In this document: in pieces, positions 6,333-45,548 of the stretch | Numbering within the stretch: the stretch's first letter is position 1 | How the letters are laid out: the number at the start of each line of letters is the position of its first letter | Source: Chloroflexota bacterium | GTDB taxonomy: Bacteria; Chloroflexota; Dehalococcoidia; SHYB01 | DNA: 61,909 bases | NCBI GenBank assembly: GCA_022572465.1 | Contig: JACZVV010000004.1 | Coordinates: 1-61,909 of the forward strand | Reading direction: 5' to 3' | The notes under the pieces: generated by a model | What the model was told of the DNA's origin: nothing | What the model saw: the letters and a program-made list of their open reading frames with translations, nothing else | The model's database searches: none | Position numbers and translations under genes: made by a program

Positions 6333-8624
6333 CTACTCGTCCTTGCTCGCAATCTTGATGACCCTGTTGCCGCTGGCGAAGCCGAAGTCGATGGGCAGGA
6401 CGGTCCCTTCCATCTTGGGAATGCGGATGCGCCGGCCCGTGGGGACCATCCTGACGCGGGTTGCCGCCCATGCCAGCGCGCCGGTCTCGCGATCGGTCTT
6501 GTCTGGGTCGACGACGGCCAGGGGGTTCGAGCCGCGGCCCTCGGCGTATCGGCCGAAAGCCTTGTGGCCCTGGCCCATGGGGATGCCCAGGACCCAGGGG
6601 GGCGTCGCCATATTGGGGTAGACCGCCGCCTCGATGCTGCCCGCCGGCGACTCGATGGTGACGACGTCGCCTTCCCGCAGGTCCATCTCCTTGGCGATCT
6701 TCTGGTTTACCTCGACCCAGGTCGCCCACGTAGCCGTGGTCATCGGGTCCGGCGTCGCCTGCAACCATGGCAGGTGAGCGCCTCGCCCGTCGCCGATGCC
6801 GATGGACTCGAATGGAACGAGGTTGAAAGGATAGTCTCCCTGCGACCCGGAGAGGTCGGCGTCGCCGCCCTGGAGGGAGATGGCCGACGCCCGCGTCGAC
6901 GCCGTCGAGCGGGAGCGGGAATCCCACCATCCGCCCTGGCGCAGCAGGTCGTTCCAATAGGCTCCGAACGACGCGCCGGTCACGTTGCCCCGGTTGAGCC
7001 CCTGGAGTCTCTGGGCCCCGTCCGTCAAGACGTCGCGGAAGGTCTCCCAGGGGAGGGCGGCCTCCATGCCCAGCTCTTGGGCCAGCGTGAGCAGGATATC
7101 GCCGAAGCCGCGAGTCTCCTGGAACGGGCGGACCACCGGCTGCTGAAAGCCGACGGCCTGATGCCCCGGGCCGGGTTCGGCCACGCCGTCGGCCCAGTCC
7201 TCCATGGGCACGCTGCTGGGGAGCACGAGATCGGCCAGCAACGAGGTGTCGTCCAGGAAGCTGGACAGGCTGACGATGTATGGGACCTGGCGCACGGCCT
7301 CGCGGGCGTTCAACGCGGCCGGCAGGCCGTGGACGGGGTTGGCGTTATGCACCAGCAGGACGCTCACCTGGCCCGACCGCATGCGATCGACGGCGGCGCG
7401 AACGTCGGGGAAGGCGTCGGCCTTGGCGGGGCCAAAAGGCGCGTCGTTGGTGAACAGCGAGCCCCTGAGGTCCGGCGCAGCGGGATTGAAGATGACCCCG
7501 CCGGGCTTGCCGACGTTGCCCACCAGGTGGTTGAGGGCGTAGATGGCCGAGAGGTTGAACACGCCGTTGGTGTGGGCCCCGGCGGTGCCGCCTCCGATCG
7601 CGAGGGCCGGTTGATGGTCCGGCGCGGCGAACTCCAGGGCCAGCTCCTCGATCCGCTCGGCGGTGACGCCCGAGCGTCCATCGCCGGCTACCCGATCGGG
7701 CCGGAAGGCTGCCAGGGCGTCGAGTCCGCGGCCACCGGTCAGGTCATCCGCCGCGCCGGCGTCGCCCAAATCTTCCCGAATGATGACGTAGGCGATGCTG
7801 AGGGCAAGCTTGCCTTCCCACCCAGGGCGGATGGGAACCCACCGGTCGGCGTTGGCCGCCGTCATCGAGAACCGCGAGTCCACATGGGTGAAGGAGCCTC
7901 GAGGGCCATCGCCCTGTCGAAACTCGCCGTATCCCCGGGAGTGCTGCACCTGGGAGATCCATCCGCCAAGGAAATCGGCCCCGAAGGAGAGCAGATAGCG
8001 GCTGTTGGCGATGTCGAAGAACGGCAACGAATCCTGGCCGAAGACCCCACGAATCGCCGCTTTCAACACCGCCTGGTCTATCGGTTCGTACGCGACGTGG
8101 CCGGCGCCGTAGGCCGAGGCGAAGCGGGAGACCAGGGCGCCCAGGTGTCCGCCGAGGGGTTCCGTCATGACGATCGCGTTTGCCGCGGCGCCATCGGCCT
8201 TGATCTGACTCAGCCGGCCGACAACCTCGTCCAGCGCCTCGTCCCACGAGATCTCGACAAATTTCAGCGAGTCGCGGCCGCCGGTCTTGCGCATCGGCCG
8301 CCGGATTCGGTCGGGATGGTACAGGGCCTGTACCCCGGCCTGGCCTCGCACGCAGAGCTTGCCGGCGTTGATGGGGTGCAGCGGGTTCCCCTCCACCTTT
8401 TTCGCTCGTCCTTCGATCACGCGGACCTGTATGCCGCACCCCGAGGAGCACTGCTGGCACAGGGTCGCATACCAGTTGTCCACGCCGGTCACCAGGTCTT
8501 CAGGCAGAAGCACCGGGCTCTGGGCGATGAACTCCCGAACGGCCGGCCGGCAGGCGGCCAGCACCGCAGCCCCGGCCGCGGAGCCGCCGGCGAGCTTCAG
8601 GAACTGTCGTCGCGAAAAGGCCAT
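6333..8624 (-). CDS. actB1: Alternative Complex III subunit ActB1, molybdopterin-oxidoreductase-like protein
   Basis: A 763-residue protein with a Tat signal (SRRQFLKLAGGSAAGAA) and the complex iron-sulfur molybdoenzyme fold. It keeps the N-terminal cluster motif CQQCSSGC plus LCVRG (Cys56, Cys59, Cys63, Cys91; C-x2-C-x3-C-x27-C), typical of catalytic Mo/W-bisPGD enzymes. The characterised ActB1 domains lack a molybdenum site, so retention of this motif is notable. The C-terminal molybdopterin-dinucleotide-binding-like domain is present (VEVNQKIAKEMDLREGDVV). ATG is preceded by CCAGGAAAACTC. It lies between ActA and ActB2. Confidence 0.85.
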   Translation of the reverse strand: MAFSRRQFLKLAGGSAAGAAVLAACRPAVREFIAQSPVLLPEDLVTGVDNWYATLCQQCSSGCGIQVRVIEGRAKKVEGNPLHPINAGKLCVRGQAGVQALYHPDRIRRPMRKTGGRDSLKFVEISWDEALDEVVGRLSQIKADGAAANAIVMTEPLGGHLGALVSRFASAYGAGHVAYEPIDQAVLKAAIRGVFGQDSLPFFDIANSRYLLSFGADFLGGWISQVQHSRGYGEFRQGDGPRGSFTHVDSRFSMTAANADRWVPIRPGWEGKLALSIAYVIIREDLGDAGAADDLTGGRGLDALAAFRPDRVAGDGRSGVTAERIEELALEFAAPDHQPALAIGGGTAGAHTNGVFNLSAIYALNHLVGNVGKPGGVIFNPAAPDLRGSLFTNDAPFGPAKADAFPDVRAAVDRMRSGQVSVLLVHNANPVHGLPAALNAREAVRQVPYIVSLSSFLDDTSLLADLVLPSSVPMEDWADGVAEPGPGHQAVGFQQPVVRPFQETRGFGDILLTLAQELGMEAALPWETFRDVLTDGAQRLQGLNRGNVTGASFGAYWNDLLRQGGWWDSRSRSTASTRASAISLQGGDADLSGSQGDYPFNLVPFESIGIGDGRGAHLPWLQATPDPMTTATWATWVEVNQKIAKEMDLREGDVVTIESPAGSIEAAVYPNMATPPWVLGIPMGQGHKAFGRYAEGRGSNPLAVVDPDKTDRETGALAWAATRVRMVPTGRRIRIPKMEGTVLPIDFGFASGNRVIKIASKDE

Positions 8625-11164: not shown

Positions 11165-12217
11165 ATGACCACGGGCGAGCGGATACGGCTCACCGAATTG
11201 GCCAGCTGCGGCGGTTGAGGTTCGAAATACGGTCCGGGTGACCTGTTCGAGCTGCTGGCGGAACTGCCGGAGGTTAACGATCCCAACCTCTTGGTCGGGT
11301 TCGCCACGGGAGACGATGCCGCCGTGTACCGGATCAGCGACGAGCTGGCCCTGGTGCAGACGGTGGACTTCTTCCCGCCGGTGGTCGACGACCCGTTCTG
11401 GTACGGGGCGGTGTCGGCGGCCAACTCGCTGAGCGATATCTACGCGACGGGCGCGAAGCCACTGACGGCGCTGAATATCGTCGCCTTTCCGAAAGACCTT
11501 CCCCGTCAGATTCTCAAGGACATCCTGCGCGGCGGGGCCTCCAAAGCAGCCGAGGCGGGCGTCCTCATCGTGGGCGGCCACACCATCGACGATGCGGAGC
11601 CCAAGTATGGGTTGGCCGTGACGGGTATCGTGAAGCCAGGCCAACAGTTGACCAACGCCAACGCGAGGCCGGGCGACGCGCTGATTCTCACGAAGCCGTT
11701 GGGGTCGGGCGTCATTACCACGGCGGCCAAGAAAGACCTGGCCGACGATGCCGTGCTGCAAGCGGCGATCGAACACATGGCAACGCTGAACAAGGCCGCG
11801 GCCGAAGCGGCGCTGAAGATAGGGGTGAACGCCTGCACCGACGTCACCGGGTACGGACTGCTGGGCCACCTGCGCGGCATGGCCAAGGCCAGCGGCGTCG
11901 CCGCCCGCGTTCATTTCGAGGCCGTGCCGATCATGGCCGGAGCCTGGTCCCTGGCCGTCGAGCAGGAGATCTCGCCCAGCGGCACGCACCGCAACCGCAC
12001 CTATCACGACCATGGCGTGTGTTGGGAGCCGGACATCCACCCCGACGCGTACCGCCTCCTGTACGATCCTCAGACATCGGGCGGCCTGCTGATCTCGTTG
12101 CCGGAAGCCAAAGCCGATGCGCTGGTGTCCGAGCTGCACGCGCGAGGGGTCGACGACGCGGTTGTCGTGGGAGCGATCGTCGACGGGCCGGCGGCGGCGA
12201 TTCAGGTTTCCGCCTGA
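11165..12217 (+). CDS. selD: Selenophosphate synthetase SelD, itself a selenoprotein (in-frame UGA)
   Basis: Makes selenophosphate from selenide and ATP. The ATG at 11165 opens a frame reading MTTGERIRLTELASCGG, then TGA at 11216-11218, then GSKYGPGDLFELL, continuing in the same frame without interruption to 12217 (350 residues). The TGA lies at the catalytic Cys/Sec position of SelD, just before the conserved lysine (here Lys21). The ATP-binding GDDAAV, the GGHTIDD motif and the C-terminal DPQTSGGLL are all present. Ordinary gene calling would start it late, at 11291, and lose the active site. Sec at this position is known in many SelD proteins. Confidence 0.9.
11231..11243 (+). promoter_or_regulatory. 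Candidate bacterial SECIS apical stem-loop in selD
   Basis: GGTC (11231-11234) pairs with GACC (11240-11243) around the loop CGGGT, beginning 13 nt after the UGA. Bacterial SECIS hairpins sit in this distance range. The stem is short and was not folded computationally. Confidence 0.4.
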
Positions 12218-30233: not shown

Positions 30234-30264
30234 ACTAAGAAAACCCGTCCCGCAAAGGGACGGG
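30234..30264 (-). terminator. Regulatory terminator of the T-box leader
   Basis: On the minus strand CCCGTCCC (30257-30264) pairs with GGGACGGG (30244-30251) around a 5-nt loop, followed by TTTTCTTAGTTTT. It competes with the antiterminator formed with the T-box bases just upstream. Confidence 0.85.
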
Positions 30265-30500
30265 ATGCAGATCCCGCGGTACCACCCTTTTTCCCCGATT
30301 CGCCCGTTGGCTATCGGGACCCTCATTCCGCTATAACGGGCGTACCCGCCCGGGCTTACGCATCTGCTTCGCGAGGTTTCAGCCCGGTCGCTCAGGGGCG
30401 AGTTCGAGGGCCTTGCCGCCGGGTCGCACCACCCCCGGCTCTCTTGGGACTCGGTTGCCTCTACTACTCCCCGTCAACGCGTTTCCGTACAACCCCTAAC
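30234..30500 (-). promoter_or_regulatory. T-box riboswitch leader of the ilv-leu operon, probably leucine-specific
   Basis: The canonical T-box sequence AAGGGTGGTACCGCGG is at 30274-30289 on the minus strand, followed by the regulatory terminator. Upstream, stem I elements are visible: GGAGTAGTA near the 5' end, then AGAGAGCCGGGGGTGGTGC, and a 3' side reading CGAACTCGCCCCTGAGC. By alignment to known stem I layouts the specifier would be CTC (30400-30402), a leucine codon; this assignment is by eye. Uncharged tRNA binding would permit transcription of ilvB onward. A leucine T-box fits an operon that includes leuA, leuC, leuD and leuB. Confidence 0.92.
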
Positions 30501-44231: not shown

Positions 44232-44254
44232 TCGACCGCCGATGGCAAAACGAA

Positions 44255-44281
44255 AGGCCCCTCAGAGCGAGGGGCCTTTTT
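44255..44281 (+). terminator. Intrinsic terminator of htpX, probably bidirectional
   Basis: AGGCCCCTC (44255-44263) pairs with GAGGGGCCT (44269-44277), followed by a T-run to 44281. The opposite strand also reads TTTCGTTTT after the stem, so it may also end transcripts of the convergent DUF3179 gene. Confidence 0.9.
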
Positions 44282-44327: not shown

Positions 44328-45479
44328 CTACTCATCCACGCCGGCGTAGAGCTCCGTCTTGGGGTAGTAGTCGCTCCAGCCGAACCAGAAGGCGTAGGTC
44401 GCCGGCACCTGCTCGAGACGCGAGCCTTGCAGCGGGCCCTCGATCGCCCGGCCGGTCACCGCGTTCCACCGCGTCCCCGTCTCCCGGTCGGCGACCATCG
44501 GCTGGCCCGAGCGGCGCTCCGATGGGCCGAAGGTCAGCTCCCGGCCATTCACCAAGCGATCGAAGACCAGCCCGGTGCCGGTCTCGTCGTCGAACACGAT
44601 CAGCAGCGGACGGCCCTCGAACGTGTCGTTCGTCACGCCCTCGCGCGCCATGGTCCGGAACGGGTATGCCTTGGCGCTTGACGCCCCCTGGATTCCGATC
44701 ACCAGCTCCTTCGGCGGCAATCGCTTGTCGTTCCGGGTCGAGCCCAGGACGCCTTTCTTGGACCCGGAGAAGTACGATGCATAGCGATCGCTCCGGTAAC
44801 CGCCACCCTTGTCCAGCACCAACGTCTCGGGGTGAGCCGAACGCCACTGGGCCCAGGTCGTCTGGGTGGCGGGCAAGGCCCGCAGCTTGACGCCGGCGAG
44901 GGGGCCCTTTACCGCTTCACCGAGCACCTGACTCCACAGCGTGCCGGTCTCGCGGTCGTACATGACCAGACCGTTCATGATGAGCTTGCCTGACACGCCG
45001 AAGCTGTGGACCGTCCCCTGGACCTCCCGGGCATACACGATGCCCGTGAAGCAGAGGGGTCACCATGTGATCGCTACCGGCACGCCGCCGACCACGTCGT
45101 TGACGATCTCGTGGGCGCTCAGCATGAACGTCGAGTAGGCGCGAGCGTCGCCGTCGATTTCGAGGCCGATGACCGGCTCGTCGGGGCGAAGCTGCGACGC
45201 CGCCTCGGCGGCGGAGACGAACCGAGGCTCGTCGATCGAACGAATCGCATCCTTGGGCACTAACGAGATGATCTTCACTTTTCTCCCTACTTCGGCCTGG
45301 CCATCCAGCAACGCGGCCCGCGTCGATTCGATCGTGACGCTGCCGGCAAAGAGTCCGGAGCGCTGGATGAACGGCCAGGCGATGATCCCCAGCAACGCCA
45401 GCGCTCCACCGCCGATGAGGATGACCTTCAGCGCGCCCCAAGGCATGCGGACGCGCCGAGGCCCAGAAGAGTCCTCCAT
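44328..45479 (-). CDS. DUF3179-family membrane-anchored protein with in-frame UGA, candidate selenoprotein
   Basis: Two minus-strand frames usually read as separate genes (45479-45060 and 45038-44328) are one frame joined through TGA at 45060-45062. The joined protein (383 residues) has an N-terminal anchor (about residues 18-38), then KDAIRSIDEPRFVSAAEA, PVIGLEIDGDARAY and HEIVNDVVGGVPVAITW. Codon 140 (TGA) comes next, then PLCFTGIVYAREV and SFGVSGKLIMNGLVMYDR. DUF3179 proteins normally read CPLC here, so the UGA replaces the first Cys of a CxxC motif with selenocysteine (UxxC). The frame and similarity continue unchanged to the stop. DUF3179 function is unknown; the motif suggests redox chemistry outside the membrane. 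Confidence 0.85.
45028..45046 (-). promoter_or_regulatory. Candidate bacterial SECIS hairpin in the DUF3179 gene
   Basis: On the minus strand CGGGCAT (45040-45046) pairs perfectly with ATGCCCG (45028-45034) around the loop CGTGT. It begins 14 nt after the UGA, the distance at which SelB-binding hairpins occur in bacteria, and has a small loop containing G and U. Confidence 0.65.
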
Positions 45480-45512: not shown

Positions 45513-45548
45513 CAAAAAAAAGAGGCCGCCCCGAAGGGCGGCCCCTCT
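45513..45548 (-). terminator. Intrinsic terminator of the solute-binding lipoprotein gene
   Basis: On the minus strand a G+C-rich stem (45521-45531 with 45536-45548, CGAA/TTCG loop) is followed by eight T residues (45513-45520). It lies 17 bp after the gene stop and 34 bp before the DUF3179 start. Confidence 0.9.

Follow-up and report, generated by a model that had tools for sequence, protein, structure and literature searches.

A minus-strand gene at 44328-45479 of the window (the whole 61,909-nt stretch of Chloroflexota DNA that was analyzed) is predicted to encode a DUF3179-family selenoprotein, in which a hairpin directs selenocysteine to residue 140 (Sec140) of a membrane-anchored domain and Sec140 forms a putative U/C redox center. 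We place the probability of this full explanation at about 95%. As a prediction from DNA the selenoprotein gene appears genuine by every test run, and the evidence for it is very strong. Translated with TGA read as U, the frame 45479-44328 (-) runs from ATG to a TAG stop (44330-44328) with a single interruption, the TGA at 45062-45060, and the read-through product has 383 residues. The UGA is codon 140 (context GGVPVAITW-U-PLCFTGIVYAR), opens a UPLC motif, and occupies the position of the first Cys of CPLC in an otherwise intact DUF3179 gene. The product matched the Pfam family PF11376 across the TGA and over the full profile (positions 1-292 of 292; E 1.4e-90; 304 bits vs. a cut-off of 27). 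The preliminary description had proposed that two half-frames are joined in phase by one TGA at the first Cys of CPLC and had suggested translation with U at codon 140; the single open frame and full-length domain match bear this out. The gene is solitary and flanked by terminator-like sites. The first, found by a terminator scan, lies 5' of the gene, between it and an upstream SBP_bac_5 gene (45519-45548, -), while the second, a probable terminator 3' of the gene (44254-44276, -), consists of a GC-rich hairpin, AGGCCCCTC...GAGGGGCCT, with a T-rich stretch after it, and was read from the sequence, the scan having missed it.

Conservation of the UGA codon was examined within the genome and across related genomes. 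Eight DUF3179 matches were found in the same genome, four of which carry one in-frame TGA each, all at the equivalent of codon 140, and three intact Cys paralogues are also present. In the first homologue set this column held TGA in 44 distinct sequences and TGC or TGT in 47, with no TGA elsewhere in any matched DUF3179 domain. A further 22 loci had TGA at the equivalent codon, and among the best 30 matches in the class 24 carried TGA and six Cys. The contig scan used three closer alignment rows, the first alignment being too divergent. Eighteen extra loci were picked for carrying a stop; TGA was present at this codon in 16, and the other two had a Cys codon there and an aligned match free of stops. 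In total, more than 80 homologous loci from several lineages share the TGA. The nearest named relatives carrying the gene were Chloroflexota MAGs, several of them labeled Dehalococcoidia, and more distant ones were deltaproteobacterial and Nitrospinota MAGs; this pattern suggests that the present genome is from Chloroflexota, class Dehalococcoidia. The Sec members show UPLC, UPIC, UPVC, UTLC, UPAC, UVAC, UVVC, UIKC, UIRC, UILC, and UIVC motifs. Comparison with sister genomes, which the preliminary description had named as a check, thus showed either UGA again or a codon for Cys at this site, nearly always with no further in-frame stop.

In a draft genome, a lone TGA could also mean that a CPLC gene has suffered a nonsense mutation or been misread in sequencing, leaving a pseudogene or truncated protein, and Cys homologues are indeed common. 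This account is opposed by the recurrence of TGA at the same codon in so many loci and lineages, almost always as the sole stop, by selection on the region downstream, and by the covarying hairpin and the Sec machinery described below. At the sequence level we regard it as already refuted by conservation, and its probability as negligible. Downstream of the UGA, dN was lower than dS in all eight pairs that gave a dS value, a ninth pair yielding none, and by this measure purifying selection acts on the region past the TGA.

At two loci, L187 (genome G540) and L188 (G711), the Sec-DUF3179 gene has a further in-frame TGA, at the equivalents of residue 132 (a conserved Gly) and residue 105, respectively; these may be sequencing errors, signs of decay, or cases of a second recoding. 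Four other DUF3179 relatives (L043, L114, L117, and L120) have motifs lacking one or both Cys (GPLT, SPLS, NPFA, and NPLC), and some members may therefore be redox-inactive.

The distribution of Sec and Cys points to repeated exchange at this position. In a tree built with the Sec/Cys column masked, well-supported branches forced at least six Sec/Cys changes. Residue 140 is likely catalytic, since Sec and Cys have been exchanged there repeatedly. Six Cys orthologues (L157-L160, L166, and L178) are 49-56% identical to the protein studied here. In this gene's own clade, Sec seems to be the ancestral state, with three Cys groups arising secondarily, a direction we infer. The Cys-form proteins (e.g. 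L157-L160, L178, and the three paralogues of the same genome) have the domain and the CPLC motif in common with this protein but differ in having TGC or TGT at codon 140 and in having largely lost the 7-bp hairpin that follows the UGA. One TGC orthologue, L178, seemingly retains a shorter stem where the SECIS would lie, which would suit a recent conversion from Sec.

This bSECIS-like hairpin (45028-45046, -) was assessed by folding, covariation, and contrast with Cys homologues. It comprises a perfect 7-bp stem (arms 45046-45040 and 45034-45028) and a 5-nt loop, CGUGU (45039-45035), in the arrangement CGGGCAT-CGUGU-AUGCCCG, with G at the second loop position. The first pair lies 14 nt past the TGA and the whole element spans +14 to +32, confirming the stem, small loop, and start of the preliminary description and adding that the stem covaries across relatives. 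Among 29 sequences of the main register group, 94.6% of stem cells were paired, both-side changes numbered 27 cells vs. 7.0 in shuffles, and the covariation score was 0.418 vs. 0.115 when shuffled, falling to 0.10 or less with the register slid. Stem covariation was also seen in a smaller sequence set, and two other subgroups had their own registers with similar stems (e.g. CCGGUC/GACCGG and GGGGUC/GACCCC). The mean stem score of UGA members was 8.45, compared to 5.54 for synonymous shuffles and 5.23 for Cys homologues (Mann-Whitney p 8e-11). The hairpin of this gene alone scored only marginally above synonymous shuffles (p = 0.07); the strength of the support lies in covariation, not in single sequences.

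Decoding of the UGA as another residue (Trp or Cys), through a general code change or suppression, was also considered, as a frame that opens under a changed code is by itself no evidence of Sec. The TGA codons of relatives, however, fall nearly all at this one codon, and not gene-wide as a code change would give, and orthologues carry Cys, not Trp, at the site. Together with the SECIS-like hairpin and a tRNA-Sec with a UCA anticodon, these observations leave such decoding with a vanishingly small probability.

Selenocysteine machinery was sought by family and by protein in the genome, a draft bin of 2.9 Mb in 160 contigs with 83% completeness. Family searches yielded matches to selA (565 bits) and selB (334 bits), and selC was represented by a tRNA-Sec match (70 bits) that ARAGORN also called as tRNA-SeC with anticodon TCA. 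These three genes lie on contigs other than that of the window, while selD lies within it (TIGR00476, 370 bits; 11186-12112, +) and has its own in-frame TGA at 11216-11218 (ASCGG-U-GSKYGP). The UGA-containing SelD noted in the preliminary description is therefore present, as are selA, selB, and selC, whose absence it had proposed as grounds for refutation. Its TGA lies in GGUGSK, at the usual Sec site, and this is the common Sec-containing form of SelD. Among 15 UGA-carrying genomes, selB fell under the cut-off in two, G015 (69% complete) and G290 (89%). Co-occurrence with selB is non-discriminating because Cys-only genomes of the phylum also have selB. Elsewhere in the window, a T-box leader (RF00230, 120 bits) was observed at 30253-30486 (-).

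The architecture of the predicted protein was examined by sequence and model. A hydrophobic stretch at residues 16-40 (45360-45434, -) is a likely membrane anchor, with similar N-terminal stretches in L023, L161, L163, and L167, and suggests a membrane-anchored protein whose domain would face the outside of the cytoplasm. The DUF3179 domain itself is, judging from half-to-half alignment (37% identity; probability 99.9; E 2e-34), an internal duplication with the redox pair in the first half only. The first half (residues 100-228; 44796-45182, -) bears U140 and C143, and the second (residues 256-379; 44343-44714, -) has no Cys at the equivalent positions. The AlphaFold2 model was confident, with ten-residue blocks mostly at 94-98 from residue 81 on and a pLDDT of 93.7 for the first half. 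Across 67 sequences, C140, C143, D175, W182, G187, and W338 were invariant, these six columns including no Cys other than C140 and C143, and H123, E124, N127, and D128 were near-invariant.

Searches of solved structures and NCBIfam models by sequence gave no convincing match. By Foldseek, whether the full model or only its first half was compared, the nearest solved folds were Rieske-type ferredoxins and NirD (e.g. 3c0d, 2qpz, and 3gce), with a probability of 1.00, target TM scores of 0.54-0.60, and E-values of only 0.006-0.04 for the best hits. Compared to these structural neighbors, DUF3179 has two tandem copies and lacks the Rieske ligands CxH...CxxH, which were absent from both the sequence and the family consensus, and every Foldseek E-value exceeded 0.005. 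In profile comparisons with Rieske domains of related genomes, the second half gave a modest signal (score 24.0 vs. 15.6 for the best of 60 shuffles), while the first half gave none, as 9 of 60 shuffles scored equally high. A literature search found no paper linking DUF3179 with Rieske proteins. The model-based resemblance is a lead on the fold, not membership, and homology is not established. Placement of CPLC in Rieske cluster loop I was rejected, since the profile alignments of the two halves differ in register and the first half is at shuffle level; replacement of the iron-sulfur cluster by the redox pair is not claimed, on the same register and shuffle evidence. That DUF3179 might derive from the Rieske fold, in tandem and without the cluster, with the CxxC/UxxC of one half as redox center, and so a membrane-anchored class unlike the thioredoxin-fold selenoproteins, is a tentative idea that we consider rather doubtful.

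In a rival reading, the UxxC/CxxC pair would bind metal or heme instead of performing thiol redox chemistry, with H123, E124, D128, and D175 completing the site. The conservation of H123, E124, N127, D128, D175, and W182, the Rieske metal domains among the nearest folds, and multiheme cytochromes near two relatives would all suit such a role. The six or more Sec-for-Cys exchanges, however, are typical of catalytic redox thiols, CxH...CxxH is missing, and the Cys pair does not align consistently with the cluster loops, making metal or heme binding improbable. The cytochrome genes in question, on L106 (6528-7907, +) and L113 (8728-10035, +), lie near Sec-DUF3179 genes.

The protein most likely functions as a membrane-anchored, extracytoplasmic selenol/thiol redox protein, for which we infer both the orientation and the redox chemistry. 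In the proposed mechanism, the hairpin 14-32 nt past the UGA would recruit SelB with Sec-tRNA(UCA), and Sec would be inserted at residue 140 to give UPLC instead of CPLC. The hydrophobic N-terminus would probably anchor the protein in the membrane with its domain outside the cytoplasm, where the U140/C143 pair of the first half may serve as the selenol/thiol redox center. A U140-C143 selenenylsulfide would then cycle with a reductant, for example a CcdA/DsbD-type system; alternatively, U140/C143 may reduce a partner or a small oxidant. A CcdA/DsbD family protein is encoded in this genome and could feed electrons outward. Comparison of gene neighborhoods among DUF3179 relatives revealed no conserved partner or operon from which a substrate could be named. 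One Sec-DUF3179 relative, on L094, has beside it a DsbD_TM-like gene (6945-7871, -) that scored under the family cut-off.

The selenoprotein assignment of the preliminary description stood, including Sec in place of the first Cys of CPLC and a SECIS element directly after it, but its claim of novelty did not, as the family has been predicted since 2007. Its statement that no DUF3179 selenoprotein had been described was wrong: the family appears in Table 1 of a 2022 review (PMC9312934; motif UxxC/T, status predicted) and in Table 1 of a 2026 review (PMC13188914; DUF3179 domain-containing protein, PF11376, UxxC/T, predicted with high confidence). As cited there, both reviews credit Zhang and Gladyshev 2007 (NAR gkm514) and the Olavius algarvensis delta-1 symbiont, and the reviews give MDJ0986319.1 and MBW1804167.1 as representatives. 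UPLC fits the listed motif, Sec opening the UxxC/T of a PF11376 protein, and the gene is a further well-supported case of this already predicted family. As summarized in the reviews, the 2007 case resembles the present one in family, in the Sec position of UxxC, and in having a bacterial host. That host was a deltaproteobacterial gutless-worm symbiont, whereas the present genome belongs to the Chloroflexota (Dehalococcoidia); relative to the case as summarized there, the present one has four Sec paralogues in a single genome, SECIS covariation, and Cys orthologues. None of the papers found in a literature search described a DUF3179 selenoprotein in Chloroflexota.

The present analysis adds to the table entry the four Sec paralogues in one genome, the recurrent Sec/Cys exchanges (at least six), the duplication with a redox pair in one half, and the Rieske-type nearest folds. 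With its many members, its natural Cys orthologues, and a SECIS that is now defined, the entry has become a well-supported case. Standard annotation will cut such UGA genes short at residue 139. For a family without an assigned function, the matched Sec and Cys proteins allow functional testing.
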